DNA of 64,000 nt from Lagopus muta (Eukaryota; Chordata; Aves; Galliformes; Phasianidae): contig NC_064437.1 of the NCBI RefSeq assembly GCF_023343835.1, positions 52,526,972 to 52,590,971 of the forward strand, written 5' to 3'. This document shows positions 3,501 through 61,700 of the stretch, in pieces. Within the stretch, counting starts at the first letter, position 1; every line of letters begins with the position of its first letter. The notes beneath the pieces are model-generated. The model saw only the letters and a list, made by a program, of their open reading frames with translations. It ran no database searches and was not told where the DNA came from. Position numbers and translations under genes: made by a program.

Positions 3501-6500
3501 GTCTGCTCTTCTGCACCCCCAGAACACTGCACTTTGTGTGGAGTGCTGGGCCTTAGCCACAGCCAATAAAAGCCACAGGAAGGCAGGAACAAGAGGTGAG
3601 AAGCAGTCAGGAGGGCAGTTTTGAACTGGTGTGTCTCATTCCCTGCAGGAGACCTGGTGATCCTGGGTGGTTCTCTGGCCTCCAGCTGGCTCCAGGGCCG
3701 AAGCAGCTGGGGTTCCAAGGGCTTTTTCCCTTCATCATGTGTGCGGGAGTTGTGCCTTTCAGTTCGGAGCCGTCAGTTGTCCCACAACTCTCTACTGGAG
3801 ATGCCTGCTTACTCACTGGGCCAAGCCCGGGCCTTGATGGGCCTTTCTGCTCAGCTGGAGGAGGAGCTGGACTTCAGAGAAGGGGATGTGATCAACATCA
3901 TTGGCATACCAGAGCCTGGTTGGTTTGAGGGGGAGCTCCGAGGCCACAGAGGCATTTTCCCAGAAGGTTTTGTGGAGCTGCTTACTCCTCTGAGAGCAGC
4001 AGGAACCTCAGAGGATCAAGAGCCTGCAAGAACTTGTGACACCAATGGGACAGTGCCCACCAAGCAGGAGCAAGATGGCAGAGAGGATGAAAGGCAGGAG
4101 CCAGGGAGCACCTATGGTGTTGCCTTGTACCGGTTCCAAGCCTTGGAGTCTGAGGAACTGGATTTTGAAGTGGGTGACAGGATTCGGATTGTGGGCATTC
4201 TGGAGGATGGCTGGCTAGAGGGGGAGCTGAGAGGGAAACGTGGTATCTTCCCACACAGATTTGTGAGACTAGAGGCCTCTGACCCTTGCAAGGAAAAGGT
4301 GGGTGCTGGTGATTCCCACACTGGAGGCAGCTGTGAAGTGACTGTCCATCAAGACTTGGAGAGCACCTGCTCCAGAGTTCTCTCTTTGCCAGACAAAGAC
4401 AGCTGGGACAAGGAGGATGGCTTGGTTGCACAACCTGAGCCTGATGCTGTTGAGTCTCACACAGCAGGTAGATCTGAGGCTCCTTTGGGCACTGATTTAA
4501 GGCAGCATGAGGCTTTTCCTGACACAGGAATCCAGGAACTACATCCCAAAACTACAGCAGATTCCCTCCCCTTTGAATGCACAAAGACGGTCAACGGCCT
4601 TCTCCCTTCTACTCAGCTGCCTCCACAGCAGAGCAGCGAGCTTGACCAAGCAGGTGTAATGGAGCCTCCAGCCCTGCCTGAGCATGATGGAAGCAGTCCC
4701 ACCGTGCCCCCACAGGCTCCCTGCTTCTCACCAGACATTTGCGGAAGCCAGACCATTTCTCCTCCCAGCAGCCGGGCAGCATCAGAGCCCCAGGAGAACC
4801 AGAGCAGCATTCAGGACCTGGATGGTCTGGTGGACAACCAGCAAAAGTCCAAACCTTGTTCTTCCAGCTGGGGAGGTGTCCACACAGGACTGGACACACG
4901 GGCTGGGAGCTGGGGGGAATCTTCCTCACTGGCAACACAGGGGCACAGTGGCACAGACCTTGACTCCAAACTGACAGAGCAACTGGTGCAGTTTGAGAAG
5001 AGTCTTTCAAGTACCAGTGCTGAGCAGGACAAGGTCTCCCGCCACTTCTCTATTTTGGACTATAGCTCTGAGAAGGACATTGTTCGTGGGTCTCCTCAGT
5101 GTGTCCCCCATGCCAAGCTGCCAGAAAGGAGGAAGGCCCTGAGACCACCTCCTCCTCGGCCCAGCACCCTTGCAACAACTCCTGTGCCCAAAGGCCGGTC
5201 TCTGTCATTCTCAGTGAAGCCCTCCCGGCCCGCTCCCCGGCCTCCATCAAGCACTCAGAGGAGGAGCATGGTCCCTCCACAGCTGCAGCCAAATGTAGCA
5301 GAGCAGCATACGGAGGAAAGCCGTGAGGATGCAACACGGACAGGATCAACTTCCCCCTGCTCCATCCTGCTGATGAGGATTGGAGAGGTGGAGCGAGACC
5401 TGGAGGCTTACAGGAAGACCCGCACTGAGCTCAGCTTGCTGCTGGAGGAGCAGCAGGATGAGCTGGTGAGAGCAGAGACCCTGGAGAACCTTGATTTCTG
5501 TGACTCCAACATTGAGAGCCTCAGCGTGGAGCTGCAGGAGCTGAGAGGTGAGTACAGCAGCATGGAATAGAGGATCTTTGGGACAGCTGTCCCCTCTAGG
5601 TACAGGCACCACTTGAACCAGTCTTCCTTAATTCTTGATTTGGGGCATTTTTGTAAACACTGTGGTGCTGCAAATCATCATGAATTGGCTTTATTCTGGG
5701 AGGAGAGACTTGTCTGGTTTATATGGGCACATTCGGGCTTTGAAAAGCTGTATAATATTGAGATCAGTGCTGTTAACTACGTTATACTTGGTAATACAAT
5801 AGACAGAGTGGAAGCAGGACCACATACATCTCCCACAGTCCCTTCTCCCCAGCTTCTCCAAGGAGCTCTTACAGTGCACTTCTGTTCCTAAAACCCACGA
5901 TGTGCAGGAAATGTGGGCACTGCATGCGGGAGGTGGAGTGAAATGCCAACTCCTGCCTTGGAATTACTCACTCTGACTTCATTGCCTTCAGCCTCCCACC
6001 ACTTAATCAGTACTGTGGAGTCCAGGCAGTCTAATTCAGGATCATGTCTGATGCAGAGCACGTGGGAATGAAGGATGATATCAGCGCACAGGGTGACCCG
6101 CAGCCTCCACATCAGTGGAGTGCAAGAAGGATGCTTAGAAGATACGAGGTTTGAAGCTAGGAAAAGGCAAATCTAGGATGTATCTCTGGGAAATTTTCTG
6201 ATGGGACAGATCTCTGTCCCATTGCTTCTTGACAGAGGGAAGTCCTGCTGAACCCATGCTCTGTTGGTTATTTGAACTGGAAGTTTTAGGCAGGAACTAA
6301 CATGCTGGCAGGGACATTGTGCCCATTGAGATAGCTCCACGGTAGTCCCAGAGCATTTTTCACCCCTTCAAGAGACCTGAGGGTTTGAAAGTAGCTTCTC
6401 TGCTCCTATAGTAAATAAGTGCCCTACCTAAGGGCACAAAGTAGGGCTGGAGTAACCTTAGGAGACCCAACTTCTCTGTGCATCAAAGGAAAAGCAGAAA

Positions 6501-9500
6501 GTAGGTGTTTTTCTGAAACATGTTTAAAATCTGCAGGTTCCTTCTTAGGCATGTCTTGCACGTACACTGAAGGTTGTGCTAAAGACCAGACCAGCACAGG
6601 ATTAGTGCTCATCCTCCAACACTTGGAGCAAGAGGGTCTGATGGGTTTAGCCTTCTCCCAACTGGGAGTATGGAATATGAGTTGTGTATTAACTAACAGT
6701 GCTGCAGGAAGCTGAGATGTGGGTGATATCCGTGGACTCTCCTCTCTGTCCAGGGCACGTTGTGGTCACCTCTTGCTTTTTCAGTTCTGTGATATGGAAA
6801 ACGGGATATGCTGAATCCTGTAGTACGAGGAGTTACCGGAGGGCTGGAAGCTTTTGTTGTGTGTTGGAGATAACTCAGACTGTCCCCGCAGGCTTGTTCT
6901 TTGGTTCTGCCCCAGTGCTGCTTGCCTCCTGCTCTTCCCAGGGGCTGCGGGTGAGGACTGGAAGAAGGATGGCTCAGCACCAGGTTAGAAACGAAGCCTG
7001 AGGGCTTCAGTTTCTCTCAGGAGGCGTGGAGCAGAGCCCAGCCTCAGCCCGGCTACGGTGTTCAAGCTGCAGGCTGCCTGCTGGAACTGGCAGGAATGTG
7101 GAGGCAAGAGAAAGAGATCCAGTACCCACTATCTCCTCTGTGGCTCCCCGCAGTCTCACACGCACCTTTCCCTTCCCTGGGGATGTTGGTCTTAGAGCAC
7201 AGCCTCCTCATGCCCCATTGCTCTACTTTTTCTCTGCCTCTGAGCAGCCCATGGGGAGGCTGTGGGCTCTGCCAAAGCAGTGGAGCCGGTTTGGGCAGTG
7301 GAAGCCTGCTCCTAACTGGTTAATGATTAGCTTGGGCAGCAGGTGGAGGAGGCTGGGGCTGGCGGCGATTGGGCACGAGCCTCTTCCTACCTTTGCTGGC
7401 TGGTTTCAGGAAGCGCTGCTTGCATTGCGTTGCACCTGGGAAGGAAGCGCCAGAGCAGAGCGAGAAGAGGCATTAGCCCCAGTGTGGGCTTGGGAGCACG
7501 AGCGAAGGGAGCTGCATCCCAGCAGGACAATGTGCTCTTATCCTGGGACAGAATATGGCACAGAAAACTCAAGGCGGAAGTCACGGCTCCTCAGCTGGGA
7601 GTATGAAGATTGTGCTGTGAGGAGAGGGGACGTCGTGGGCCTGCACAGTGAGAGTCGCTGCAATGAGAGACCCAGGGTGCAGAGGGGAACAGACAGAGGC
7701 TGGAACAGTGACAGGAGAGGGGAGGGCATCTCTGTGGATGGATGGAGCATGAACGGAGACTGTGAAGGCTTTTGGAAAGCAGATAACCAGTACATGGACA
7801 ACAGGAGAGCAGACAGTGTTTGGAAAGGCAAAAGCCCATTTACAGAGGACAGAAACTGTGGGGTGAATGAGAGAGAGGCTGTTCAATACAGAGGCTGCAA
7901 TCCTGAGGTGGGAGAAAAGCAGTACAGGGGGGACAGAGGACCTGAGGAGGGCAGGGAGGGGGGAAGGCGGTGCAGAGAGGGCAGAGGCCCTGGAGAGTAC
8001 AGGGAAGGCAGAAGGTGGCATAAGGACAAAGGTCCTAGGGACTATAATGGGAATGGAAGATACTGTGGGGAAAGGGAAAGGCAGTGTAGGCAGGACAGGA
8101 GATATGGGGAAGGAGGGAGGCAGTGTAGAGAAGATGGAGGTTATGAAATAAGTAGGGAAAGGAAAAAGTGGCATAGAGAGGTTGGAGGCTCTGAGGAATT
8201 TAGAGAGCAGGAAAGGCAGAATGTAAACATCAGGGATCTGAAGGATCGTGGAGATTCTGAGCAGCACAAGCAGCTGAAAGGTCGTGCCATGGACTACAGT
8301 GTTACGTCTGGAGGTCATGGAGCTCACTTGTTGACATCTTGGTCCTTAGGAGACAGCAGCACCAACGTGGGGTCAGACCCCTACTGCAGACAGTCAAGGA
8401 TGCGGGACATGGGCTGCAATGGCTGTGGGGAACAAGGAGCAGAGCACTCAAGGGTCCGCACGGGCCGACCAGACTGGAGCCACGTCTGGGAGCAGGAGGC
8501 CAAGAAAGAAAGCAGAACAAGCTCTTCACTGCAGAGAAACAGTTTGTACAGGAGAACGGCTCCCAGCACCCTGCGGCGCTCAGAATTTGTACAGACCAGG
8601 AAGGAGAAGCAAGGTATGCAGAGAAATGCTTGGGAGGTGTCGCTGTGGTGGCTTTGGGCATTCCTTAACCCTGCCCTAGTGCTGAGGCAGCAGGATCCCC
8701 CAGGAAAGCCTGGGAGCGCACACAACTTTGTGGGGTTAGGCCTTTCTTTGCAAGGTGGTGGGGTCTGTGTGGAATGAGTGAAGGAGCCCCTTTGTGTTGG
8801 GCAGAGGTGTATCTGAAGACCTGTTTGCAGCTGTACCCTTTCTGCCAGCATCTGTCTGAGGCATCCGTGCATGTGCTGCCCTTGGAGGAGGTTAGAGTGC
8901 AGAGTGTGGCAGTGCAGCAGCCGCCCGGGCAGCAGGGCTGCAGGCTGTGGCTGGCTATCAGCTTACAGTGAAATTTGTTCTCTGGAGGTATTTGATTCAG
9001 CAAGCTCCAGAGGCTGCACTGTGTTGGTAGGTGGGACTTTGCTCAGTATCGTCCCCAGGGCAAGGGAGTGGTTTTGTGGTGCCAGGATGTCCAAAGGGCA
9101 GAGGGGAAGCTAGGAGAAGGTGGGAGCAGAGCTCAGGGAGGCTCAGAATGGGGCAGGGGCTGCCTGCAGGAGCTGCATCTGGAAACAACTCCCAGCTGGG
9201 CCTGGGGAACTCTGCAGTGCAGCACAGTGAGAGAGCTCTTTGATTAAAGCATCTCTGAGATAAGATTTGCATGTGTTTGCCCACTGCTCCAAGGAGAGAC
9301 CCCTCCAGTCCTGGTGGTGCTGTATGCTCATCCTCACTCTAGAATGTTTTGCGTGCTGATGTGTTGCCTTTCAGCTTTCAATGCCCAACCTTTATCTGCT
9401 AAATTGGAGCTTTTTGGTTGATGGTATTTTTCTCTGCGTTAAACTTGTTGGTTTGAGTAAAATACCTTGGCTTTGTCAGTGATTAGTGTACAGCATCCTA

Positions 9501-12500
9501 CATCATCATCATAAAAAATCAGTGTTTGGTTCTCTACAGAACAGCAGTGTTTTTTCTGTTTACTTTGAAAATATATATGGGACCAACTCTAAATACAGTC
9601 CCTGGAGAATCTCACTGGAAGTGCCCTCTTTTTTAGATGTTGTTCACATGCAAGTTTCAGATGCTAATTTGCAGGGTCTTACTTCTGCTTTTCAAATGGG
9701 AAGAGACATTTACCATATAATTCTGCCTTTTTCATCAAACTTATCAAGAATTCTACTCTCTCCCCTTAGTAGTGGAACTAGATCATTGAAAGGCTTTCTC
9801 TTGTCTGGAGTGGAAATAAAATTGGATTATAAAGTCACATTTTTTCCCCCTATTTGAAACTAAAACTTGAATTCTTATTTCTGCCATGAATCTTTTTGAT
9901 ATCTTCCTTCTCATTTTCATTTTTTAACAGTTCCTGGTGTTTACTGTCTATTGTCTGTTTTTGTATATTCATTCATGTATCTGTTTACATTTGCTGCTTT
10001 TGCTGAAGCATAGACCCATCGTTATTGTTCTCTTCCTTGATTGTGTAACAGTGTTTGGATTATCTGCTTAAAATATCCTTTTAAAGGCCTTTCACTTTCC
10101 ATTCTTTTTTTTTTTCTGTTGGTATTTTTGCTCACAGTCATTTTTATTAATGCTCTGTTCACCGTTGGAGTGAATGGTAGAGGAGAGGATACAGACAGGA
10201 GGCATGTGCATCCCATCTGCCTTAAGGGGAGCTGGGAGGGGGCTCTCCCAGGAAGGCCATGCAAATCCCTCCCAGGGCTCCTCACCTGTCTGCCAGTGAG
10301 CATCTCATGAGCCCTGTTCTCCGCCAAGGCTCAGGCATGTGCTTTGCTGCAGTTCCACTTTCACCAGAGGGCCTCAAAGGGAACCAGTGGGTTTCAGGTG
10401 AGGCAACTTTGTGTTGAGTCCTGGTAGCCCTGGAGAAGTGCCCCAGTCTGTTCCTCTTCAGCTCATCCTTAGGGTTTGGATTTCTGTCACTGCTGCCAGG
10501 GAGAAGTGAAATACTCAGTATATTTAGTTTCTTGCTTTCAGAGCAGTGGATATATTCTGTTATGGGCTGACTATCTAAATTCAGAGTGAATTTTTACCCC
10601 AGCCAGTTCCTGCTCCTGGCAGGGAGCTTAGCCTTTCCCTCAGATTAATTATTCCCCGCCCTAGTTTCATCCCTTCTCCTCTTGCTAGGCAGTAACCCCT
10701 CCCCTCCCAGCATCCACATACTTCAAATATTTGCAGCTGGTTTGTTTTGTCCTTAGTCACTGCTTGGCTGTGCTGAGCTGTGAGCCCAAGGCTGGGCCTT
10801 TCTTGCAGGCACAAAATCAGAGGCTCGTGCTGAGTGAGGCTGCACAGGGCTTGTCCTCAGCAAGCCCTCCTTGAGCTTGGCCTGGGAGCTGGCCCTTCTT
10901 TGTTGTTTTCTGAGTCACCTTCCCTCTGAAGGAGTCAGGGGCAGAGCCAGCTCCAGTTGCAGCAGCTGATGGACAGCACGGCCCTCCATGGACTGGGTTA
11001 GCAGTGGGAGCACGGTGTGACAAGGGATGCTGGCAGGTGAGCCCCAATGAGAAGCGCGTGATGGATGTGAATCCTGTTGGGTCTGGTGCACGTGGATCAA
11101 CTCCCAGAGTGAAGCAGGATAAAAAGCTCTAGCTGTATGTGCACTCACAGCCTGAGTTGCAAGTACTGGCTGTTTTTGTTGATTGGAAGATTGTTGGTTG
11201 AGCTTCTGAGCTGAGCAGTGCGATTGCAGTATTGAAGTCATGGTCTCCATGGGCAGGGTGAGGTGGGAGTTTGCTCCACCTCAGCACCTTGCAGCCTGTT
11301 CTCCAGCATTGGTGTTGGGCCTCCCATGTGTCAGCAACAGCAGCTCTGGTGGGAGACCAGCATAGCATGTCAAAGCAGTGCAGAATTAATGTGTCACAAA
11401 AGCACCAAAGGGAATAGAAAACAAAGCTGTTAGAGACTTAAATGTAGGAAGCTCCTGCAGGAGCTTCAAATGAGCAGAACTTCAATCTCTAAGAATTGTG
11501 GTTGAGAACAGTGTATTTCTGAAGAGTATTTCTGAATGCTCTTTCGGCATCTGTGTCATGGGTAAACATGAATTGGTCACTGGATTGGAATTTGGTGGCT
11601 TCATTAGAAATACCAGTTGCATTCCTGCAAACTAACGGGGACTGGTCCAGCTGTGGTGTGAGGGCACGGAGGTAATGTCCAAACAGAGCATCTGTGGGGT
11701 GAAATGGGGATCTGTTTAAAAACCATTTATTAGGTGAGCAAAAACCACAGTTGTGAAAGAATGTGAGTTTAGTTAAATGCTGAATGAGATTCATTTATGG
11801 AGTGCTGCAATTAGACGTACAGAAATGTGGAACAAGCAGGAAAAAAAAGAACTGGGTGGTAGTCAACAGAAATGCTCTGAAATACGAAAGGGAGAGTTTT
11901 TAAACGTCAGGAACGGGTTGTAAGAAGTATAGATGAGCTGGAAGCGTAGAGTGTTAACAACAAATTCTGTGTTTTGGGTCTTTGACCTCTGAGTGTTTAA
12001 ATAAGTGGGACAGCGTTCTGAGTTTGTGACTGGAGAAGGTTGTTGGACTGGTGATCAACAGCAAGGGTTATCGGAGAGCTGGCTGCAGCATCACTGTGTT
12101 TTTCAATGTCTTGAAATATTCAGAGCAAGAAAGCCAGAGGGGAATTAATTTGAGTGTTCAGAAATTACAGGCAAAATAATGGAAACACTGACAGTGTAAG
12201 TGGGTGGATCTGGCAGACAGCTTTGCCAGATCAGGCAGGCCGCTTTGATGGCCATTATGTGCTAAAAACTTGGGCAGGGAAGGTTTTCCCTTCCCTCTCC
12301 CAGATTGGGATTTGAGACTTGCACAGGAAAGGTGTCAGAGCTGGAAGTCTCGAGCATCAGGCACTTGCCCCGGGGCGCTCTTGGACTTGCCCAGGGTGTG
12401 CTGGACAGAGCGTGTGGAGCAGCTGCAGGAGCAGGGATCCCCAGTCCCTCTCTCTGAGCTGGAATTGGAGCAGGGCGTGAATGCAAAGGGGGATTTCCCT

Positions 12501-15500
12501 GGTTGGGGCTGGGCTGAGTACTGTGTGCTGTGCCTGGTTCCCAGCCCCACAGAGCCAGAGCTGAGCTGGGCAGCACTGAGCTGCTGGGGATGCCAACAAT
12601 GAGGATCCAGGGACCTGCTAGGGATAAGTAGGGGCTCCTCTGCAGTCACAGTCTCCTGCAGCCACCAGATGGCTGTGGCTGAGTGCACAGCAGGATTGTT
12701 CGGCAGTCGGTGAAGTCTGGGACGTCTTGCACGAAGTTTCATCTGGGTCGTCGTCATTTTGCATGTGGATAAATGCACAGTTCAGATATTTGGCTGTGGT
12801 AAATTTAATCTTTCCCATTTAATCTTGAAGCAAATTTAATGTTTCCCAGGAGCAGGATTTGATCGTTGTGGCTCCCTTCACTCTGCAGCTCCCTGATTTG
12901 TTTGTCTGCTGCACAGGCTGTTGTTGAATACAGTTCTTTTCACAACTTCCTGGGCAACCTTTTGTGCTTTGTCAGCTCGGTCAGGGCAGTATCAGCTCAC
13001 ACCCCACCTGCCCTTGATTTCGCTCATGGTTTTACATTCAAATTACCACCTTCCTGCTTCTTCCATGTTGCTCTTCCACTTGAATGTGCTTTCGTGACAA
13101 ACCAATGCCCTGACAAACTTCTTGAACTAACATACATCTAACATAACTCACTTGCCATTTCTGTTTCGCTGTTATTTGGGAGCTGCTAGCTGCAGACTGC
13201 ATTATCTGAGCATTTCTTTGTCCCTTCTGTTCCTTTTTTTTCCATCTTCTGTCCTATTCCATCTGCAGGCACTGTGTCTGGGGCAGCACATCCCTGTTGT
13301 GTTTGTAGAGGACCCTGCAGACAGGGCCTGCTCTGTAACTGAGGCTTTGCAAATGCTGTGCAAATGCAAGCAGTAAATGTAAAATCCAGCAAAAATATTT
13401 GTACAAATATCAGAGCTGGGGGGTGTGCTCGCAACTGATGAAATCCCTGTGACACAGAGCAGCTGGGGACGTGTGGGAGTTGATGGGCGTTTGTCACATC
13501 GGCCACTGGCCTAAAATCACAGGATGGGTGTGCTGCAAGCAGGTACCAGCTGTGCAAAACAGCAGTGCAAGGCAGGAGAGCTGAGTTCATGGGCTAGAGC
13601 CTGCCTGGGACAGCTGTGTGGCTGAACATGGAGGCTGTGTGGCTGAACATGGGGAACCGGTGCTGTGTTTCGGGCCAGAGGGCACATGCTTTCAGCAGCA
13701 GGCAGGTGGAGCAGAAAGTTGCTGGGGCCCGGGAATCCATGGGGATAAAATGTCTCTGAACCTGAATGAAAACAAGAGGGGGCTGGGCTGGGCTGGCCGA
13801 GGAGCTGCAGGTGGGACAGAAAACCAGGAGGAAAGCCAGCAGCCCGGCTCTGGGACAGAGAGAATGAGGGTGTAGAGCTGCCAGCGTGCCTCAAGCCTGT
13901 GGCAGGGCTCTCTGCACTGCAGTGCCCACAGCGTTTTGCCAGAGGCTGTTGCAAGGGCACGGTGGCCCCAGCCTGGGGCTGTCCCTGAGCTGTGCTGGGG
14001 AAACAGGGTTCTCCCAAGCCTGCTAACACTGCTGTCAGTGGGGGATGCATGCAGCCCCCCCATGCCTCTGCCCCTGTGTGTGCCCGCACTGCCTGCCTGC
14101 TACCCACGGCCTCGCCAGGTCTCAGGCCCGGTGCCAGATACTGGTCCTGATCGCTTCCACTCCACTTTGGGCCTCATGGCTACCAGTGATGGCTTCCCGA
14201 GCGCCACACAGCCCTTCTGGTCACACTCCAGCTCCAGGCTTTGCTGCTTGCAGCCCCATTGTGGTTGCCTGGAGGCCTTTTCAGCTATTCAGATGGAAAT
14301 GCCCCAGAGCTAGAGAATGGAGACCCTGTTCCCAGCCCCAAGGGAGGGGACAGCAGCCATAGCCAGGCCCCAGCCAGGATGCAGGTGGGAAGCTCCTCTG
14401 CTAGGGGTGGGAGGGCAGCGGGTTAGGGGATGGGTAGGAGCAGTGAGCATTAGGGTGTTGGGACCTGGCGGGACTCAGAACCTGCAGCAGGTTTTTGTGG
14501 CTGTTGGGAGTAGCAGGGAAGTGGCTGGGCAGTATTTGGATTACCACAATGAGCAGGAAGCGGCTCTGGCTCCTGGTATTCTGAGGCTTGGGGCAGAGAA
14601 GACCTGACTGCAAGCTGTCCTTGTCCTGCAGCACTCAGTACTGTGAGGCCCCAGTGCAGTGTACCAGTGCTGATAATTAAGGTAGGCTGTGGGATTGGCC
14701 TGCTGGCTCCGCTCTCTGACCATCATGTTTGATCATCTCAGAGGTGCTACATGTCTCCTGTCCTTGCCATGCAAGAGTTGGGCCAGATGTTACTGGAGGA
14801 TACTGATCTTGCTTGTCTGTCTTGCAGAGATGACCCTCCTGTCCTCTCGGATACCACCCCTGGAGACATCCTCATCTGTCACTGAGAGCCCAGAGCACAG
14901 GATGCTGGAGAAGAGGTCCAAGGTTATTGAGGAACTGCTCCAGACAGAGAGGGACTACATCCGAGACCTGGAGATGTGTGTAGAAAGGATTATGGTGCCC
15001 CTTCAGCAGGCACAGGTAAGAGTATGGGGGAAGGCTATGAGATGGTGGTGGTGGGGTGGAGTAAGATACAATCTGCTGAAGTTCTTAAAGACCTCAGGGG
15101 ACATTCAGCTACTCTAGGAGCAGCAGGGTGTTTTTCACTGTTCCTTGCAGTCATAGAAATAACCCATCAATTTTGGGATTCTGCTGAGTTCTCACTGTTG
15201 CTGAGAGCAAGAAACATAGCAGCAGATGTCACAGATTGATTTCCTAGGGTGGGAACTGTTGTTCCTATTTGTTTGGTTTGTGGATTATTTCACTGTCTGG
15301 AACTGATGGCACTGATAGGAATGGGAGGGTGGTTGGACTAGATGATCTTGCAGGTCGTTTCCAACCTTGTGATTCTGTGATTCTGTGAAAAAGAAGATAC
15401 AGGATCTTGGCGTGGTGTTGGATTTGATGGGAAGAAAGGGAGTGTCAGATGATCTGACACTCCCTTGGATGAAATTGCTGGGAAAGTAGAGGACACTGCA

Positions 15501-18500
15501 TTTAATAGGACGCATAAGGAGTAAGAGTTTCAGTGTGCTGCAGAATGAGGGAGAGAGTGCAGAAGTCACTGTGCTGGGAGCATTTTGTGGTGAGTGTCTG
15601 CCGGGGAGCTAAGGGCTGATTGAAGGTTGCAGGAGGACAAGGGAGAGGATACTACTGTGTCTAGCTGGGACATGCTCTCCCATCCGAGACTTCTCTCTTC
15701 TTTTTCTCCAGGTTCCGAATGTAGACTTTGAGGGTCTTTTTGGAAACATCCAAGTGGTAATTAGCTTCTCTAAGCAGCTGCTGTTGACCTTGGAGGCTTC
15801 AGATTCCATCGGTATGAACTCTTCTGTTGCCTTTACTCAGAGGCTGGGATGAGATCTGCTAGTGGGGTGGCAGAACAGGGCAATTTAAATGATAGATGAG
15901 AGAGTTTCCTCCCCCTTGGTCCCTGTCAGTTCTCATCAGCCCAGCAGCAAAGCTGTGTCACTGTGCTGAGAAACACATGTTGTCTATAAACTTCCCTGGC
16001 TCCTTCCTTAAAGCGAACCCCCCTCCTCACACCTGCGCTGCCAGCTTTCGCTGCTCAGCTCCAGTGCAGCTTGTGCCTTTGCTGTCCCCGTGGCTTTCAC
16101 TGTCAGTGACCAGTCATCTCCTGGAAAACTGGAACAGTTGAGGTGTCTCTGCTGGTCACTTCTGGAGCTCCTGTGGGGCTCTTCAACTAAATTAAACTAT
16201 CCCCTCGAAGTTTGAGCAAACATGTCCTGGTGAGTTATCGTAACAGGCTTCAGCCTCAGCAGACCTTTCACGCACCATTCCCATTTCTGTCCCCTCCTGC
16301 CCCCTCTACTCAGCCTGCAGTGACAGGGAAGCATGAAGGGTGTGTGGGCATGCACAGCATGGCAGGGAGGCACCCACCCTGAGTGCTCTGTTAGCACTGT
16401 CCTCTCAAGCTCCAGGTGTGGTAGAGAGTCATGGGGCATCTTGCCATGAATGCGCCATGACTGTTGGAAGCAACAGGAGTACTGGAAACACTGAAGTCCT
16501 ACTTTTGGTGCTGTATGCAGGGCCGGTGTTCCTGGCACAGCGTGCAGAGCTGGAGAGCGTTTACAGGGTGTATTGCCAGAACCACGATGAGGCCATTGCA
16601 CTGCTGGAAACATATGAGAAGGATGAGAAGATCCAGAAGCTACTCGTGGACCTGCTGGATAACCTCAGGTTGGAACCTCTGACTGTGGTGACCACCAAGC
16701 TGGGTTAGAGGTTCACTCTCCAGCACCCCCTGCTGCCCTGCAGCAGTGCTCAGACAGTTCAGTTGGTGACAGATCTGGGACTAGCTATATCACTGTTGGT
16801 GACAAAGCTCCAGGTTCAAATGAAAAGGGCTTTTGTTTCAGTGATAGCCTGCTGCCCCACAGGACATGTGTGCTGGGCCTACACCTGTAGGGCCATGAAG
16901 TATGGAGAAGGTGGTGTGTCCTGGATTGAGAGTTCCTGTTTCCCAAGTCCTTTGTCACTATGACCAGCAAAGGAATGAGACACTTTGCCTGGCTCAGCGA
17001 TTGCCATGGCTCTGGGCATGACAGGGCTGCCATGATAGTTTCACTGCAGGAGGGGGCAAGAGTGCTGGCTGTGGGAATGCACGCCTACCACACTATTAAC
17101 CTGTTGCTTTTCTTTGCTTTTTGGCACTCTGTGGGCCGTCAGGAGCCTGTACAGTGAGTGGTAAGTTCTTCCTTCTTGTTAGTCCATGCTTACCTGGCCT
17201 GGCCTGGCTGCTCCCTTGTGACTCACCTCCTACCACCAGCTTGGTGCATGTCTGAGTGCCCCACCAGTGCTGCTTGGGCTATACAGGCAGATGGTGAGGG
17301 GGGATCTTGGGCTGAACACTGGTCTGGGGAGCCATCAGCCCCAGGGAGGCTGGAGAGCCTTGTGCTGGCTGCAGAGCTGAGCGTGGTCAGTCTGTCCTAC
17401 ACTGTAGGTCAGGTGTGACAGTGAGGTAATGGGATAGTCTGAGGCAAGTGAAGCTTTGGTACCTTTTAGGCTGTGCCTATGTGGGATTTCACAGGGGGTC
17501 TGGTAATGGATAGGTTCCTGGCTGGGAAAGATAACCTGGTATGAGTAAGATCTGGAAACCTGAGGCTGATTGAGGTCACTAGGGGTGTGGGAGTGCTTTG
17601 GTTTTGGAGATGAGGGTGGCCTGACTTAGGAAGTACAGTAGATTTGGACATGCTGGTCCTCTGGATATGGTTGGGGTTGGTTCAAGGAGTCAGACTTTGC
17701 ATGATAGAGTTGGACTGAAATCTGGTGCATCTTTTCTGTCCCAACTTCCCAGGGGCTGCACAAACTACATTAACCTGGGCTCATTCCTCATCAAGCCAGT
17801 ACAAAGGGTGATGCGGTACCCCCTGCTGCTGATGGAACTGCTGAGTGCCACCCCTGAATCTCACCCTGACAAGGCACCACTCACAGCTGCTGTTCTTGCA
17901 GTCAAAGAAATTAATGTCAACATCAATGAGTACAAGCGTCGGAAGGACCTCGGTGAGGAGCTGGGGAGTGAGTGTGTTGACAGTGGAGTCTGTCAGCTGC
18001 ACGAGCATGAAGAGAATCTGTTCCCGGTAGACTGATCTGAGCAACAGTGTAGAACTGCATTTTAAAAGCTACACGTGAAACACAATACGTAGAGGATAAT
18101 GCAGTACACATCTGACAGGAGATATTTCTTGTGATACAGTGATATAAAATGCATGCAATTGCTGGATGCTGTTAGACTAGAACAAAGAAGGATAAGACAA
18201 AACAATGTCTGTTTAATGTTGAAAATTGAATTTTGAAGAATACAAGTAGGGAATCAGTCTGTCAGGGTATTCTCTATCTTACTGAGATACAGAGAGTGAG
18301 TTTAAAGGTGTATCTGTAGACAGGACAGAATTACAGAGCTGTTGGCTGGAAGGACCCAGGATGTAAGCTCTCCCTGTGGATTATGAGCTCTAGTTTTCCC
18401 ACATCCTTTTTGACCTGGGGAACCCAGGCTAGACAGAGAATCTTAACTGCAGCTTCCCTGAGACTGAACAGAGAGAGAAAATGTCATCTTATACTTTTAC

Positions 18501-21500
18501 TTATTCTACACATAACGTGAAAAATGTTAAAAGGTTGAATGTTGCATCCGCAAAATGTGTGACATATCCAGAGCCAAGCAAGGGAATTACAGGTGGTCCA
18601 GTGCTGGATTTTGAGTTGATGTACGATATGACAGAATACAAAACAATATTATGTGATACATGGAACACTTGGGATTACAGAGTCTTAGGGAAGAGGCAGC
18701 AAGGCAAGTGTTGATGAGGTACTGCAAGACACAGATGTTGTGCTGGTAAGTTTTCTAATTTCTACATCAATTTCTGTAGTGCTTAAGTACCGGAAAGGGG
18801 ATGAGGATAGCCTCATGGAGAAGATCTCCAAGCTCAACTTCCACTCTATCATCAAGAAATCCAACCGTGTGAGCAGCCACCTCAAACATCTCACAGGCTT
18901 TGCACCCCAGGTAATGTGCATCAGCTACCAAGTGCGCTTACACCCCATGATGTTTGAGGAGGTGGCGGTACCTGCTGGCTCCCTACATCCCTTTTTTGAT
19001 GGGTAGTTCTGATTCAGGTCAGCAAGGCAGTGAGCTTAGGGTCCGAACCACCTGCCTCTGCTCCCTGGCTTGTAGGCAAGAGGCCCCACATCTCACACTC
19101 TGGGAGGTAGCAGAGTCCCACGTTGCCTCCCTTGAGCATTTTTCTCTCACAGCTGAAGGATGAAGCCTTTGAGGAGACAGAGAAAAATTTCCGGATGCAG
19201 GAGCGACTGATCAAGTCCTTCATCAGGGACCTTTCACTCTACCTGCAGCACGTTCGGGTGAGTCTTGATATGATGCCACTTACTACTGCTTCTGCCCTCA
19301 GCTCTGCCTGCGTGTTGGCCTCTGGAGGTCTGGGCTGCCCTAGAAGCTTGAGCCTGTTCAGGGAGCTCTGTTCTCCTGGGCAGTAAGCATGGTGTGCTGA
19401 CTGCTTGTCCCTGCTGCAGGAGTCGGCCTGCATGAAGGCACTAGCAGCAGTCAGCATGTGGGATCTGTGCATGGAGAAGGGCAGCGGGGACCTGGACCAG
19501 TTCCAGAAAGTGAACCGACTCATCAGCGACCAGCTGTTCTCCAACTTTGTGAGTGAGCCTGTGTCCTTGTGTGTTGAAGGCACCCCCTGGGACCCTCTCA
19601 CCTATGATTGGCTGTGCAAGTGACGCAGCCTGGGAGAGGTGCAAGCACCCCTACTCATCTCTTGCCTCCTGAAAGCTTTGGTGGCTGTGGCTTTTGGTTA
19701 TGCCTTGAGCATATCTGTTAGATACGCATTTGTCTTCAGCCATACTTGAAGTGTTAGAACCTTTAGGTCCTTCCTGTAGTTTTTTCCATGCTGGCACATG
19801 TCTGTAATGCATATTGGAAAGGACCTCTAGAGCTCTGGTGGGATGCTATTGGAGTACGGACACTGTACTGTTCTGGAGAAGTTGTGTACCAGAGGGTGGG
19901 CTGCTGGTGTTCTCAGTTTGACAGAAGAGAGCACCTAATCTCACCTTTTCCCTGCATCTGTACCCACCAGAAAGAGCGAACAGAGCGGCTGGTGATCTCA
20001 CCCCTGAACCAGCTGCTGAGCATGTTTGTAGGGCCCCACAAGCTGGTGCAGAAACGCTTCGACAAGCTCCTCGACTTCCACAACTGCACAGAGCGAGCAG
20101 AGAAGCTGAAGGACAAGCGAACGCTGGAGGAGCTGCAGTCAGCCCGTAACAACTACGAGGCCCTCAATGCCCAGCTGCTGGATGAGCTGCCCAAGTTCTT
20201 GTACTTTGCCAAGGAGCTGTTTGCCAGCTGTGTGCGGGGCTATGCTGAGGCACACTGTGACTTCGTGCGCCTGGCCCTGGAGGAGCTGAAGCCTCTGCTG
20301 TCGGTGGGTTCCTGGATCACAGCCAGCACTCCAGACTCAGTGCAGTGCTAATCTCTGCACAGGGTTTGTCTGGTGGGGCACTGGAGTGATAGGTACATTC
20401 ACCAGCAGCTTTCACCTAACTGCTCTGATCCTGCTCTGGTTCCAGTTGCTGAAGACGTCTGGCCGGGAGGGGAACCTCATTGCCATCTTCCAGGAAGAGC
20501 ACAGTCGAGTCCTTCAGCAGCTCCAGGCTTTCACCTTCTTCCCAGAGTCACAGGCGGTTCCCAGGAAGCCTTTTGAGAGAAAGACCGTGGAGCGTCAGTC
20601 TGCCCGGCGGCAGCCTCTCGGTGCCTTGGTGAGTCACATGTGACCCCATGTCAGGGCTCACTGGTGTGCTGGAACAACCACTCACACTTGCTTTGTTCCT
20701 CTGCAGCCCAGCTACATCTTGCAGTCAGATGACATCCGAGCAGCCCTCCTGGCCCGCTATCCCCCTGATAGTCTCTTCCAGGCAGATCGCAATTTCAATG
20801 CTGCCCAAGACCTGGATGTCTCTCTGCTGGAGGGAGACATTGTGGGAGTCATCAAGAAGAAGGACCCCATGGGCAGCCAGAATCGCTGGCTCATAGACAA
20901 TGGGGGTAGGTGGCTGCTCTCTGCCTTTGGTGCCTGCTGCATCTCTCCTCTGGTTTTCCTGATCTTTGACATGAGCTCCTTTTTTCTCCCTCTCTGCAGT
21001 GACCAAAGGCTTTGTGTACAGCTCCTTTCTGAAGCCCTACAACCCGCGCCGCAGCCAGTCTGATGTCTCAGTAGGCAGCCACTCTTCCAATGAGTCTGAG
21101 AATAGCAGCTCTTCTCCCCACAGCAGCACCACGCTGACCTTCAGCCCCAGCAGGGCAGCCGTGGCCTTCACTCATAAACCCTCCCAGGACTCTGCCTCAC
21201 TGGGAGAGCTGTGCCACTCTCCACAGTCCCCCTCGGAGGTGGATTCTCCAAGCTCTGGTGACAGGACAGTCCCACTGGAGGCCGGAGTGGTGACATCTCC
21301 ACACCGCTACAGCCGACCCGAGCCAGGCTACAGCCCCAGCCCTCGCAATGAGCACCCCACCAAAACGCATCTTAGGTCTGCATCCTTGGTGGAGGACAGA
21401 GACTCTGGGCTCGAGAGCGGCGAGTCAGAAGGCAACCAGGTGAGCCCTGAGGTAGCTGGGGTTTGGGGTGTGAGGGTGAGACCCTCACTTGTGTAGAGGC

Positions 21501-21944
21501 TGAGTCATACTCTGCAGGCATGACCAGGGAGAGAAGTATGAGGTAGAGACTTGTCTGTCTCAATGAGACGTGTGCAGAACAAGGCTGTGAGTGGAGGTGG
21601 ACAGATGGGGACAGCTCTGGCAGAGGCTGGGCAGGGTCTGCTGCTCTTTGGGTACACAAGCCAAAACTCAGCGCAGAGTCTTGGTTCTCAGTGCACAACC
21701 TGTGCCATGTAGCACATGCTGAGTGCCTGTCTGACTGACACCTCCCTTTGCCCAGCAGGTCTACTATGCTCTCTACACCTTCAAAGGCCGAAACACAAAT
21801 GAGCTGAGTGTGTCAGCTAACCAGAGACTCAGGATCCTGCAGTTTGAAGACATCACTGGCAATCAGGAGTGGTGGCTGGCGGAGGCACACGGCAAGCAGG
21901 GCTATGTGCCCTCCAGCTACATCCGGAAGACAGAATACACGTGA
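507..21944 (+). CDS. DNMBP: DNMBP (Tuba), dynamin-binding Cdc42 GEF
   Basis: Tuba is a scaffold that activates Cdc42 and links dynamin and actin regulators at junctions and Golgi (family knowledge). Coding exons: 507-651, 2969-3091, 3649-5547, 14828-15015, 15712-15811, 16521-16668, 17143-17160, 17753-17952, 18780-18910, 19153-19257, 19420-19548, 19971-20303, 20446-20628, 20707-20905, 21000-21439, 21759-21944. They total 4527 nt, or 1508 residues (human 1577). The start MEAGSVVRA matches human. Domain order: four SH3 domains (about residues 1-300), a variable region, a proline-rich stretch with [12 protein letters not shown], a coiled coil (about 660-722), a DH domain (about 750-940), a BAR domain (about 985-1200), and two C-terminal SH3 domains (about 1255-1320 and 1447-1508). 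The end RKTEYT is identical to human. All junction phases agree. The variable linker accounts for most of the length difference from human. Confidence 0.97.
652..2968. other. DNMBP intron between the first two coding exons
   Basis: This 2.3-kb intron runs from the donor GTAAGA at 652 to the acceptor TTGCAG ending at 2968. I see no conserved coding sequence, tRNA or clear repeat in it. The short open frames inside have no recognisable protein content. Confidence 0.6.
7530..8613 (+). CDS. DNMBP: Candidate alternative first coding exon of a short DNMBP isoform
   Basis: An open frame runs without a stop from at least 7026 to 8777. Within it an ATG at 7530 has A at -3 and opens [14 protein letters not shown] donor follows CAAG at 8613 (GTATGC from 8614). 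The frame is then one base into a codon, the same phase as the normal upstream exon ending at 5547. Splicing to 14828 therefore reads through in frame into EMTLLSS and the DH domain. The predicted isoform has 1147 residues: 361 new ones, then DH, BAR and two SH3 domains, without the four N-terminal SH3 domains. The new part is rich in Arg, Glu, Gly, Tyr and Cys and I recognise no domain in it. An inverted CCAAT box at 7368-7372 lies 158 bases upstream. Short Tuba isoforms lacking the N-terminal SH3 domains are known in mammals; whether they use an equivalent exon I cannot confirm. The frame could also be a chance product of purine-rich sequence. Confidence 0.55.
7900..8225 (+). repeat. Degenerate charged 13-17 residue repeat inside the candidate exon
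   Basis: Purine-rich DNA encodes about seven imperfect units, most 13-17 residues long. Each opens with Arg/Lys, an aromatic or Cys, then Arg/His and an acidic residue, followed by a Gly-rich part and another Arg-Glu. Examples of unit starts are [27 protein letters not shown] and KWHREVGGS. Unit length varies but the reading frame is kept throughout, which is more like a protein-level repeat than a neutral minisatellite. Confidence 0.5.
11448..11467. repeat. Perfect 20-bp palindrome
   Basis: GAAGCTCCTG is followed directly by its exact reverse complement with no spacer, within the large DNMBP intron. It has no assigned role. Confidence 0.6.
12662..12675 (+). promoter_or_regulatory. CTCF-like motif
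   Basis: CCACCAGATGGCTG matches 13 of 14 positions of the common CTCF core CCASYAGRKGGCRS (motif from memory). It lies in the large DNMBP intron. Sequence match alone does not show binding. Confidence 0.3.
15320..15388 (+). mobile_element. CR1 LINE 3' end
   Basis: The segment has the usual avian CR1 tail: a tract reading toward GACTAGATGATCTTGCAGGT, then CCAACC, then tandem ATTCTGTG octamers ending at 15388. Only the 3' tip is present, as is typical of 5'-truncated CR1 copies. It lies in the DNMBP intron before the exon at 15712. Confidence 0.85.
15436..15466. repeat. 14-bp perfect inverted repeat with 3-bp loop
   Basis: The arms at 15436-15449 and 15453-15466 are exact reverse complements around TGA. 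The hairpin sits about 50 bp after a CR1 3' end in a DNMBP intron. The loop is too short for a typical microRNA precursor. Confidence 0.65.
17143..17160 (+). other. DNMBP: 18-nt DNMBP microexon (DH domain)
   Basis: Between an acceptor CAG ending at 17142 and a donor GTAAGT at 17161 lie only 18 bases. They complete an Arg codon, encode SLYSE and begin the Trp codon finished at 17753. The phases fit both neighbours, and the joined product SLYSEWGCTNYI matches human SLYNEWGCTNYI. Skipping would remove six residues from the DH domain without shifting the frame. Confidence 0.9.
21754..21758 (+). other. DNMBP: NAGNAG tandem acceptor of the last DNMBP exon
   Basis: The acceptor reads CAGCAG immediately before GTCTAC. 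Use of the second AG gives NQVYYAL, matching human NQVYFAV. Use of the first would insert one Gln just before the final SH3 domain. Confidence 0.6.
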
Positions 21945-37710: not shown

Positions 37711-37723
37711 GTTAATTGTTAAC
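37711..37723 (-). promoter_or_regulatory. HNF1 site in the proximal ABCC2 promoter
   Basis: GTTAATTGTTAAC matches the palindromic HNF1 consensus GTTAATNATTAAC at 12 of 13 positions. It lies about 130 bp upstream of the ABCC2 ATG. ABCC2 is expressed in liver, kidney and gut, tissues where HNF1 proteins act, and mammalian ABCC2 is reported to respond to HNF1. Binding in this species is inferred. Confidence 0.65.
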
Positions 37724-51045: not shown

Positions 51046-54000
51046 TCATGGCAAGTCCCCCTGGCCTGGGGGCAGCAGCACCACCTTGTCCAGCCAGAGC
51101 AGGTCCAGCTGCCGGCGGTGGATGCGGCGCAGCCGCAAGAGGTAGAGGACTATAGCCAGCCCTACAACCAGGATGCAGGCAAAGAAGAGATAGTGGTTGT
51201 AGACAAAAGAAAGGCGCAGCCAGGAGGTGTGTGCTTGCCGGCTGCTCTCTTGCCGGAGATCCCTGTGGAGAGGAGAGGTAGAACCAGGCATAATTGGCAC
51301 ATGTACCACAAGCTGTAGCTGCTGCTCTCTAAGGATGGCAGAGCTTTGTGCAGTAACTGCTGCACATCCCCTTCCAGCTAGGCTACAAGTCCTGGAGCTA
51401 ATGCTCCTTCCTGTGTTACCTGAGTGGCAGAAAGCGTGTCTTGTAGAGGATGGCTCCCAGCGTCCACTGCACCTCACGGTCATATACCAGCTGGGCTGTG
51501 TGCAGGCTGGGGTAGTCCAGGGGGAAGTGGAAGCCCTGGTGAAGGACTTGGTACATCCAGGCAGACTTGAAGCACTGATACCTGCAGGCAGCACACAGGA
51601 ACATCAGCTGGGTGCTACTGCAGGGTCCGAGCCCAAGACAGAGCCTACCACAGCCACTCCTATCAGTGAGCCCCCAGGAGGTATATCCCTGGTCCCTTAC
51701 TTGAGGCGATGCTCATCTGCATGTGCTGAGTACAGGCCACTCTGGAAGCGCTGGGTCAGCACCTCCCATCTCTGGCTGCAATATTCCTAGGCAAAGAAGT
51801 TTCAGTTCAAAGCAAGGGAACGACCCCAGATCCCTCCCAGCATGGTGAGACCCCGTGGTCTAGAACAGTGCTCACCTGGGCAGCAGAGATGAAGGCACGG
51901 GCACTGTAGCGGCCCCCTAGGCGCAGCACATCCTCAGTGCAGTAGAAGAACTCAGAGAAGCCATAAAACTCACTGTTGCTGAAGTCGATGGGTGCTTTGT
52001 AGGCCCCAGTCAGAGAGTCCTGGCTGCTGTTGGACCCCGCCAGAAGTGGGTGCAGCAGCAGAGCACAGGCCTGCCAGTCCCCTCGCCCACGGACATACAG
52101 TGTTTGGCTGCCCCTTGTAATTGTGTCTTCCAGTCCCACGGGCAGGCAGGGGTCCAGGAAGGGAGTCTCAGGGCTCAGCCCTGTCTGCTGGCTATGCAAG
52201 CTGTAAAGCAAGTCAGGAAAGAAAGGTCACTGCACATGGGGTTAATTAGTATATTAATATAATATAATTAATATTAATTAATAAAAATATTAGCTAGTGC
52301 TCCTCCACAACTAATACCACTGCAAGGCCCTGTCCCCTTGTACACTTGTGGTCCTGAGAATCACCCAACCAACTCCTGCTGAAGCTAAGCTCTCCAGATC
52401 TGTAGCCACAAACCCTGAGCACCTGATGGGTGCTATGGGGGTACAGTCTGTTCCCACCAACCTGTGGGGGCCTGCGCCCCCACAGAGACCCCAGGTCATG
52501 TGGTGGCAGGATCTTCTCCCAGCATGGGAGTACCTGGGCTCTGAATCTCTGCAAGTCTGGGAACAGCTTCAGGAAATAAGGCAGGAGACAAGTGGAGGTG
52601 AGAATGCAGTGGAAAGATGTGCTGAATGAGCCAGTGCTGAAGGAGGGAAAGCCAGAGCAGGGAAAACCAGAAGCTGCTGTAGGGGAGTCCCTATAGTGCT
52701 GGCAGGGGAAAGGTGACAAGCATTGGCACTGATAATGCCTGCAGGGCTCTGACAAGGGCAATGCCATTGTGCCACGTCCCAGCCCAAGCACCTGCTGCAC
52801 CCAGCTGCTGCCAGCGTGGCTGTAGCAGCTGTTATCAACCACAGGTGGCTCTTGGGGAAAATCCAATGGGGTGAGGGTGGCACAAAGGAGCCGGTGCTGT
52901 TGTGCAATGCCAGGGCAGCCCGAGGCAGGGCAGCAATACCGGTTGTGCACATAGGTCTGGTTCAGCACAAGCTCTTCATAGCGCTGCCGAGCAAAGTTGC
53001 CTCCGAAGCCCAGGAAGGTGTTGACGTAGACGCGATACACATGGCTGGTGTGCTGCACGTCACAGCCCAGGTTGAACTCTGCCAGTAGGTTCTTGGCAGC
53101 CTCCTCCTGGGTACAGGAGACCACCATCAGTGGTGAACGTTGGGCGGCTCTCAGTGCCAGCCACTTGCCCAACACACACCTGCTGCGGGGATGAAAAGGC
53201 TCCGGAGCCAGGCACCTCATAGGCGATCTGCAGAGAGGCCCCCCCCATGTCTAGGATCCCAACCGTTCGTCTCCGTACCAAGGACTCCACCTGGTCTCCC
53301 AGTGCTACAGTGACAACTGCAGCCTCCTCTGAAACCCGCAGCAGTGTGTCAGCGAGGGGCTGGGGGGCATTCCTTTACTGGTACCTCCCAATGCCCCTCG
53401 CACATAGGAACTGAGGGCCAAAGGGCTGCATGCTGCCTTCCCCACTGCTGCTGTGCAAGCAGCTGGACTCACCATCCTCATGATCAAACCGTCCCAGCAC
53501 AAAGTTGATTCCGATCCAAGCGTAGACACCTGGGCATGACAGAAAGATTTTGCCTTAAGGCAAAGCACAAATGATCCTACATAGGTTCCACGCAATGCCG
53601 GCAGCCCTGTGTGCTCCCTGCTAGGGAGGACAGGAGGACAGGGCAGCGTTTCCCACCTTCCTGCTTCCCTGAAATGACTTCAGCATGCGATTTGGAGAAG
53701 AGGAAATCGAACTCCAGGGGCACGTTTTTCACCAGGTTCTCCAGGATGGCAGCTTGCAGCCTGAGGGGCACAGTGACCTCTGGGAGATGCTCCTTGTCAG
53801 GACAAGAGCAGCAGAGAGCAGAATCTCGCAGCTTTGCCAAGTCCTCCCTGCCCATCGCCCCGTGCTCACCTCTCAGGCAGCAGCCGCATGCCGGCCGTGC
53901 ACAGGACATACAGCGGCGTCTCCTTGTGCTTTCCCGCTGGCACGTGTGCGGCCGCGAAGCGCAGCAGGGGCCGCAGGTAGGCCGTGGCTCGCTCCGGGGC

Positions 54001-58705: not shown

Positions 58706-61700
58706 TCATGTCCCCTCCTTTTCTCGAGTGGCCTAGTGCTGTCACTTGACTTTTCTGACTGCCCAGCGCTGAGCTCTTTCATGGGGCTCCTGTTAGGGCA
58801 GTGGGTGAGACCACTGCCTGTTGGGGACATGGAAGCAGCAGCCAGATGTGCCTATATGCTCAGTGGAAGCTCTTGAATGAAGGATAGGAAACTTCTTCTT
58901 CAGCCTTCCCCAGTTTGATGGAGGAAAGCTTTAGATGGTGGAAAAGTCCATGAGAAAAGCAGTGTTCTTTGCTTGCTCAGCCCAGACCACTACTAAGTTA
59001 CTGCTGCAGCCCTGACCACAGGCAGGATGGAGATCAGAACACCTCCATTTCACTCCATGATGCCGTGAGCCTGCACTGCCTCATCCTCCCACAGGGTGCC
59101 ATGCCTGAAATAACTCCCTGGAGGAAATGCTTTCACAGTCCCGGTATGCGCTGCCTGTCAGTGTCCCTGTGGCTTTGGGGCTGCTGGCTGCCCTGCATGG
59201 GGTCATTCTGCCCCTCATGTTCCAGTTGTGGAAAGGGGAAGGGGGTCTGGCTGAATTGTGTGCCAGTCTTCTGCTCCTGTACCCCACTGTTCCATGCAGT
59301 CAGGAGGATCGGGCTCTCCTCAAAGAAACCAGAGCTGCTGGAGAGCTGGGAGCCTCATTTCACCACTGTTCAAGGAGCTGTGGGGCTTTAAGAAATATCC
59401 TGAGCACTGCGAGATTTGGCAGCCCTGCAGCTCCTCCACCCAAGAGGCAGAAATCCGAGAAGCCGAAACGGTTGGGCGAAACTGTGGCAGGACAAGTGGG
59501 CAGCACACGAGGAACAGCCTGGTCCTGCAGAGCCAAAGTGGAGCTGCAATTTCACCCTCAGCCCTCACACTGCAGCCGCCTCAGAGAGGAAGGCATAAAC
59601 AGGGGCAGGGGCCAGCGGAGCTTCACGCTATTAAATCCGTCTGCCACTGCGAGCTGCTCTATAAATGTCAGTGGGCAAAGGCATGATTGAAGGTGACTCT
59701 GGGATGAGGAGAGAGATGTTTCCAGGAATAACTGCCCACAGAAGTGCGGGGGGAGGGAGAGAGACCCCTGGGAGCAGGGATGTGATAAGTCAGCAGTCAA
59801 GAGGCAATGGACCTGGGCAGGGCATGGCCTCCTGGCTGCTGCAGCTCTGCTGGCACAGAGCAGTGCAGCATTGCACAAGAACAGCAGCACTGCAGGAAGC
59901 AGGGCTGCTCAAGAAACCCCAAGTTCAGCACTGAGGGTGCTCCAAGGTTGGTTCCTGGGGCACTCCTCGGGCTGCCAGGGTGCATCCCTGACAGTGAGCC
60001 ACCAGCCTCACGCTCTGAGCCTGCAGCCCTGCTCTTGGTGGTGGCTTCCCCAAAACACGTTCTCCATCAGCAGCGAAGGCACTGTGCTCTTCCCTGAGCC
60101 CTTCTGGCTCAGAGCTGGGCTGGATGGTTCAGCTATGGCTGCTGCCCTCCCCAGCTCCGATAATGCCTCAGTGAAGCCACGTGGGTGCGTCCTGTGGCCT
60201 CCCCGGCATTTGGCTGTGCGTCATGTGAAACCCCTCCTACAGCCTCTGCTGAGTAACTGCGCTATTTTTGGCCTTGCAACGAGGGAGCTGCGCTCATCCC
60301 AGCGAAAGGCTGGAGGCGACCCTTTCCCTTCACCTCCCCGCAGGACCCCCAGCCCCATCCCACCCATGGCCACGGGGCAGCCATTGCCCTGTTTGGAGGC
60401 ACGCTTCGGAAGCGCTGAGGTGTCATCACAGCCTGCCCAGCACTGGCTCTGGGATTCCTCAGGACTCTGTCAGACCCCAATAAAGTTATACACGTTCTCA
60501 CGACCCTACGGCCCCACAGCAGTGGTAAATTCAGGACACAGAGCAGATGTGGGTTCTGGGGAGCCCTGGAGCTGTGGTGTGCAGATAGGGGAGCGCAGGC
60601 TTCAGACTGAGAGGTAAACGGTGGCTGGGAACCTGCTTTGTGGACACTAACAGGTCACTGCAGGAAGCAGCGCCTGAATTAGTGCAGCAGGGACATTCGA
60701 AGGCTGTTCCAGGTGTTGGTGGCACAAGGGCTGGCATTAAAACCTCCTGACAGGGCACAGCACATTCCAGGAGAAATGCAAAAACCCAAGTGGCTTCCTC
60801 TGGCCCCAGAACATTCGGATGCGCGTTGGACCTTGGCAGCGAGCTGCTACACGAAGGGGAAGGAGTAGGAACTAGGCCAACATTGGGCACACGTCCCGTG
60901 GGGATACAGCTCCCTCTGGCGAGCCCGGGGCTGGCAGCGCTGCGGGCGACGGGCACCACGACCCCCAGTGCGGTGGGACCGGGAGCTGCAGCGCTGGACA
61001 TTGGGCTGGGGCTGAGGGCAGAGCAGGACATCTGCGGAGGGCGCTGCTGGAGATCCCACCGCTGTGGGACGAAGAGGGGCTGCCCGTCCCCTGTCCCCGT
61101 GTGCCCGCCGATAGGTGGCGGTGGTGGATCTTGCTTGGGGACAGGCCGGGCCCCGTGTCGCAGCTGGGAGCGAGCTCGTCCCTGCGAAGCGTTCGCGGAA
61201 TTTATTGCACAGCCGCGAAATGTGGCACGGAGCTCTGCGTAGTGCAGCAGACGCAGCCTTTTCCCTCTGTCCTCTGCTTGAATCCTTTACAGCGGCTCTG
61301 CATCGGGACTCACCAGCGCAGGGATCGGGCTGCAAAATGCAGGTGCCCCCCCTTTGGCCAGGTGTGGCCATTTCGTGATGCATGGGACAGGAGTGAGGAT
61401 GGGGGAGTGCTTATGGTTGTGTAGCTCACCCGTGAAAAGAAGAGTGCTGTTGTGCTAGTGGGAGAAACCCTCACTGGGAGCTGCACAGCAATGGGCTTTA
61501 TTGATATTTTAATATATTTACCTGTTCCACAGCTGGCCACAGCTTCCTTAGCACTCCCCAGCGCTGAGTTAACAATTCCATGCTGCACTGTGGGATGCTC
61601 CCAGCATGATCCCCCCCACCACTGAGTGCTGCTGCAGGTCCCCAAGTGCCTGGTCCCTGCTGTGCCACAGAGAGTGGAAAGGAGAAACAAGAAAAGGTGT

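Follow-up and report, generated by a model that had tools for sequence, protein, structure and literature searches.

The Lagopus muta gene for DNMBP (Tuba), a regulator of cell shape, raises the question of whether the intron that separates its N-terminal SH3 half from its DH-domain half also holds the start of a second, shorter protein. In the window, meaning the whole 64-kb stretch of DNA that was analysed, the intron between exon 4 (end 5547) and exon 5 (start 14828) contains a long open frame, and the reading that we favour, with fair confidence, is that DNMBP has a genuine alternative first exon at 7530–8613 on the plus strand, which codes for protein and is joined to exon 5. On the strength of the sequence, this bird probably makes a short DNMBP with a new front end.

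Gene context of the candidate exon

The gene is identified from its sequence as DNMBP by the SH3 domains in the exon-4 frame, the DH, BAR and SH3 domains downstream, and a last SH3 that matches named structures. The open frame with exon 4 (3600–5547, plus strand), which represents the N-terminal SH3 half, gives Pfam SH3 matches and ends in a phase 1 donor (CTGAGAG/GTGAGT at 5547); it would be skipped by the short isoform. Exon 5 (14828–15015, plus strand) is the start of the DH-domain half, and its acceptor (CTTGCAG/AGATG) needs phase 1. The remaining modelled exons (15712–21944, plus strand), placed by means of the exon chain and Pfam, comprise the DH, BAR and C-terminal SH3 regions and would be common to both isoforms.

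The original prediction had given the short product a DH, a BAR and two SH3 domains. Pfam returned DH, BAR and one SH3 on a modelled chain of 1081 residues (RhoGEF/DH, E 2.9e-40; BAR, E 1.3e-44; SH3, E 5.8e-11), and the penultimate SH3 (SH3-5) went unreported at E 0.001, the exon at 20707–20905 being the one that we take to resemble human SH3-5. In the PDB, the last SH3 matched chains that carry the name dynamin-binding protein (E 2.1e-31). The exact length of 1147 residues was not reproduced, since our own exon chain gives 1138–1142. The sequence SLYNEW, presumably a short piece of human DNMBP, was expected between VDLLDNLR and GCTNYINL (16669–17752) and was not found by a simple search; it may have been lost in this gene, or it may lie beyond the reach of such a search. 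As regards the intron as a whole, a search of 5600–14827 against Rfam with gathering scores gave no hit, and at 13613–13652 a 21-nt unit is present in 1.9 perfect tandem copies.

The open frame and its coding-type signal

The frame (7002–8774, plus strand) runs for 591 stop-free codons and is the second longest in the window after the DNMBP exon-4 frame (656 codons). Within 7530–8613 it has no in-frame stop, and the other two plus-strand frames have 9 and 20. None of 3000 dinucleotide shuffles of 7002–8777 reached 591 codons (mean longest frame 114, maximum 296), and neither did any of 3000 shuffles made within 150-nt chunks, which keep the local composition and the purine skew (maximum 248). 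The open intronic frame of about 1.75 kb that had been predicted is thus present, at a length far past both shuffle maxima. The shuffle test alone is unspecific, since other long frames (306 and 318 codons) were also unreached by 500 shuffles of their own. These results include 0 of 500 for the 318-codon frame on the minus strand at 52297–53250 (maximum 267) and likewise for a frame of 400 codons (maximum 399); a frame of 480 codons near 55 kb was reached by 2 of its 500 shuffles and one of 323 codons by 1. The 306-codon frame lies at 59697–60614 on the plus strand (0 of 500, maximum 271). To be unreached by shuffles is no proof of coding, and what is distinctive here is the margin, the 591-codon frame comparing with a maximum of 239 in its own 500 shuffles. 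In addition, the same frame continues without a stop over the 528 nt that precede the ATG at 7530 and over 161 nt past the donor, and therefore part of its length is luck.

A signal that is specific to the frame was found in the composition of the codon positions. The position-specific composition chi was 33.9 in 7530–8612, a value that 2 of 2000 local shuffles purged of stops also attained, compared with 4.0 in 7020–7529, which is open in the same frame (1459 of 2000), and with 50.3 in exon 4, taken as a control (0 of 2000). A leave-one-block-out test, which scores every 90-nt block with a model derived from the remaining ones, placed the open frame best in 11 of the 12 exon blocks, the sole loss being the last one (8520–8609). 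In the controls the corresponding figures were 15 of 19 for exon 4 and, for 47 overlapping windows presumed to be non-coding, a mean of 3.9 of 12 and a maximum of 8 of 12. When the model was built from the whole exon, the open frame was best in none of the six blocks of 6990–7529, nor was it best in 8613–8774. The coding-type signal begins at or near the ATG at 7530, at a resolution of 90-nt blocks. It is uneven along the exon, with chi values of 17.1, 23.7 and 7.3 in successive thirds, the last being weak. The period-3 signal of 351-nt windows lay between the 35th and 63rd percentiles of the window for starts at 8281–8641 and between the 81st and 92nd for starts at 8701–8821, beyond the donor; within exon 4 itself the percentiles varied between the 21st and the 98th.

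Codon usage gives weak support to the exon, and it distinguishes neither one strand from the other nor the exon from the sequence upstream of it. With a model trained on DNMBP, the exon in its frame scored -0.023, above the highest value of the null set of 137 overlapping windows (-0.035), and its contrast was 0.128, the highest null value being 0.117. One minus-strand frame, however, was level with the sense frame over the exon (-0.021 versus -0.023), and by thirds the minus frames stood above the sense frame in two of the three (0.022 versus -0.030, and 0.022 versus -0.091). A model built from exons 5 onward also put a minus frame ahead over the exon (-0.072 versus -0.122 for sense); applied to exon 4, it chose the correct frame and strand (0.001, next best -0.136). 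Moreover, the stretch 7020–7529 scored -0.055 in the same frame, the boundary at the ATG being invisible to the codon model.

Ends of the exon and competing explanations

The proposed exon (7530–8613, plus strand), to which the frame, periodicity and leave-one-out tests were applied, begins with an ATG and measures 1084 nt, that is, 361 codons and 1 nt (phase 1). Its start codon lies in the context ACAATGT, with the A at -3 that had been noted as a Kozak feature. Upstream of it there are in-frame ATGs at 7251 and 7323 and out-of-frame ones at 7096, 7183 and 7210, with none between 7323 and 7530, and because these precede it, 7530 is the first ATG only for transcription that starts after 7323. 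The region 7026–7530, in which transcription had been expected to start, must therefore be narrowed on account of the five ATGs at 7096–7323; the part that stands is 7332–7529 (plus strand), a putative promoter and 5' leader which has no ATG and belongs to a stretch (7020–7529) with no coding periodicity. No CpG island was found around 7001–7401, the observed/expected CpG ratio being 0.25–0.42 in 400-nt windows starting there. A scan of 7000–7600 for sigma-70 promoters was set aside as irrelevant for a bird.

Immediately before this leader, at 7319–7331 on the plus strand and 199 nt before the ATG, lies GTTAATGATTAGC, an HNF1-like site and candidate promoter element with one mismatch to GTTAATNATTAAC, which we take to be the consensus of the HNF1 motif. 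Sites with at most one mismatch number 2 in the 64 kb, against a mean of 0.00 in 100 shuffles, and those with at most two mismatches number 3, against 0.53. Permuted motifs (n=300) had a mean of 0.22 matches in the window, at least one match being found for 19% of them and at least two for 1.7%. The second site, GTTAATTGTTAAC, is on the minus strand at 37711–37723 and precedes by 131 nt the start codon (37580) of a minus-strand gene which, from the likeness of its exons 1 and 2 to the human sequence, we take to be ABCC2. In mammals, ABCC2 is under HNF1 control. As a motif chosen post hoc and with a single match, the HNF1 reading may serve as a lead.

At the other end, the splice donor GTATGC (8614–8619, plus strand) scores 4.07 bits in the context AAG/GTATGC and leaves the frame in phase 1, the phase that exon 5 needs, so that the donor at 8613/8614 proved as plausible as had been proposed. 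It is the top-scoring GT in 7530–8790 and falls in the top 1.8% of the 3405 GTs of the plus strand; the median of 12 modelled DNMBP donors, 3.6 bits, is below it. These scores use general splice-donor frequencies.

The same stretch could be read in other ways, one of which is that a purine-rich part of the intron has given rise to the frame by chance and that the frame is untranslated. Such a segment, whose extent also speaks for the exon, was detected independently of the reading frame at 7439–8637, with a purine skew of 0.68, and this explanation would also account for the low-complexity Arg/Gly/Glu composition, the weak support from codon usage and the weak periodicity in the last third, in a window that holds other unexplained long frames (306 codons at 59697) and with no homologue found in Pfam, NCBIfam, PDB or the prokaryotic and viral contigs. 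Against it, shuffles that keep the local dinucleotides attain less than half of the frame length, the other two plus-strand frames are interrupted by their 9 and 20 stops, and the periodicity both outlasts the purging of stops (2 of 2000) and shifts near the ATG, so that chance appears an unlikely origin. The change of signal near the ATG also bears on whether the frame is instead a large cassette exon of full-length DNMBP (7021–8613, 1593 nt), the inclusion of which would add 531 residues in frame. An acceptor-like TTTCTCTCAG at 7020 would give phase 1 at both ends, with codon position 2 as the first base of the exon; that site follows shortly after 7002, where the frame opens, and the codon model on 7020–7529 (-0.055) is about level with the exon. 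Nevertheless, the periodicity that a cassette predicts from 7021 is absent (chi 4.0 in 7020–7529, reached by 1459 of 2000 shuffles), the open frame is favoured in none of the six blocks of 6990–7529, the pyrimidine tract at 7020 is moderate (0.65), and the acceptor-like sites with richer tracts (0.71–0.76, at 7154, 7248 and 7410) are out of phase. A cassette is accordingly judged very improbable, and a first exon from the ATG at 7530 is preferred to it because periodicity is present in 7530–8612 and absent from 7020–7529.

The exon could also belong to another gene that lies within the intron, or to an antisense gene, for which the minus strand offers a frame of 254 codons at 7584–8345. Only 1 of 500 shuffles reached that length, and in the middle third (7890–8249) the codon model gave the antisense frame 0.022 and the sense frame -0.091. 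Its codons, however, are exactly opposite the sense codons, which means that a scarcity of TTA, CTA and TCA among the sense codons is enough to keep it open, and over the whole exon it scored below the sense frame (-0.075 versus -0.023, and -0.138 versus -0.122 in a second model); we read it as probably a shadow of the sense frame. NCBIfam gave no match, and among the plus-strand frames listed between 8778 and 14685 the longest has 145 codons. An origin of this kind is considered extremely unlikely.

The predicted short isoform and its known counterparts

The 361 residues that the exon would encode contain 15.8% Arg, 13.0% Gly and 10.5% Glu, are of low complexity and have a net charge of +12. 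No Pfam or NCBIfam family was matched, which bears out the novel N-terminus lacking a recognised domain that had been proposed, and PDB gave no relative either. Neither did the prokaryotic and viral contig collections, a result of little weight given those sources; short-pattern matches occurred in 19 stretches of prokaryotic and 3 of viral contigs, and none was confirmed by tblastn. The segment is basic, rich in Arg, Gly and Glu, and probably disordered, disorder being suggested by this composition, the net charge and the lack of a matching Pfam or NCBIfam family. A degenerate repeat at the protein level was also observed, with a lag of 51, between residues 143–168 and 194–219 (7956–8033 and 8109–8186). 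Its score of 74 is borderline with respect to 200 shuffles of the core (maximum 75, mean 39), and different codons are used at 7 of the 13 identical residues, 7.3 being expected for independent codon draws. This codon test cannot separate an old selected repeat from low-complexity chance, and the repeat was not used as evidence.

From these features we infer how the short form would be made. Transcription would start within the intron between exons 4 and 5, at about 7332–7529, and translation at the ATG at 7530; splicing would then join 8613 to 14828, the first base of exon 5, and the joint would read K-E-K-Q-E-M-T-L-L. The product, of about 1140 residues, would carry the 361-residue segment in place of the N-terminal dynamin-binding SH3 domains, and would retain the DH domain, which activates Cdc42, together with the BAR domain and the C-terminal SH3, to which N-WASP and Ena/VASP bind. 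Such a form would drive Cdc42 activation and actin assembly without recruiting dynamin, perhaps in epithelia that express HNF1. A more tentative extension, which we regard as rather doubtful, is that an HNF1-controlled intragenic DNMBP promoter in polarised epithelia of this bird (kidney, liver, gut) yields a dynamin-uncoupled Cdc42 activator with a basic N-terminus of its own, a switch between long and short forms separating endocytic from junctional actin control. In this context, PMC6399408 describes DNMBP as coupling dynamin to actin via Cdc42 and as required for kidney tubule development in Xenopus; the pronephros of that animal both expresses and needs dnmbp, which speaks for the favoured reading, and against it the Western blot text of that paper names the 170-kD Xenopus form only. 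If the short form exists, its own promoter and N-terminus would split the dynamin and the Cdc42/actin activities of DNMBP by tissue, and knockdowns directed at the 5' part of the gene would spare a GEF-competent product.

To our knowledge, no transcript of the candidate exon has been described. A literature search found no description of the exon, its coverage of DNMBP being incomplete and hence no evidence of absence. In the passages retrieved from PMC4021885, PMC3728924, PMC10453029 and PMC3562341 no such isoform is described, and PMC7409654 lists, for mouse Dnmbp, an enrichment of 'exon 1' in trophoblast stem cells; this could be any first exon and was not taken as evidence. It may be that the candidate exon is already annotated in this genome, so that the word 'hidden' may not apply to it.

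Mammals are known to have short forms of DNMBP whose start lies in the DH half. The human one, presumably UniProt Q6XZF7-2, which we take to lack residues 1–754, and the 'mini-Tuba' reportedly described in Kovacs 2006 resemble the predicted bird form in having DH, BAR and the C-terminal SH3 without the dynamin-binding SH3 half, and in starting downstream of exon 4. In contrast to the bird form, the human short form presumably starts at a methionine within the exons of the DH half and has no new N-terminus of 361 residues. ARHGEF37 and ARHGEF38 (which we take to be Tuba2 and Tuba3) likewise combine DH and BAR domains and lack the SH3 scaffold at the N-terminus, although they are separate genes. 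As for the mechanism, the promoter in intron 17 of ADGRB1 (PMC11711277) is a comparable case of an intragenic promoter that leads to an N-terminally different protein, whereas in DNMBP the new first exon would itself encode a long unique segment.
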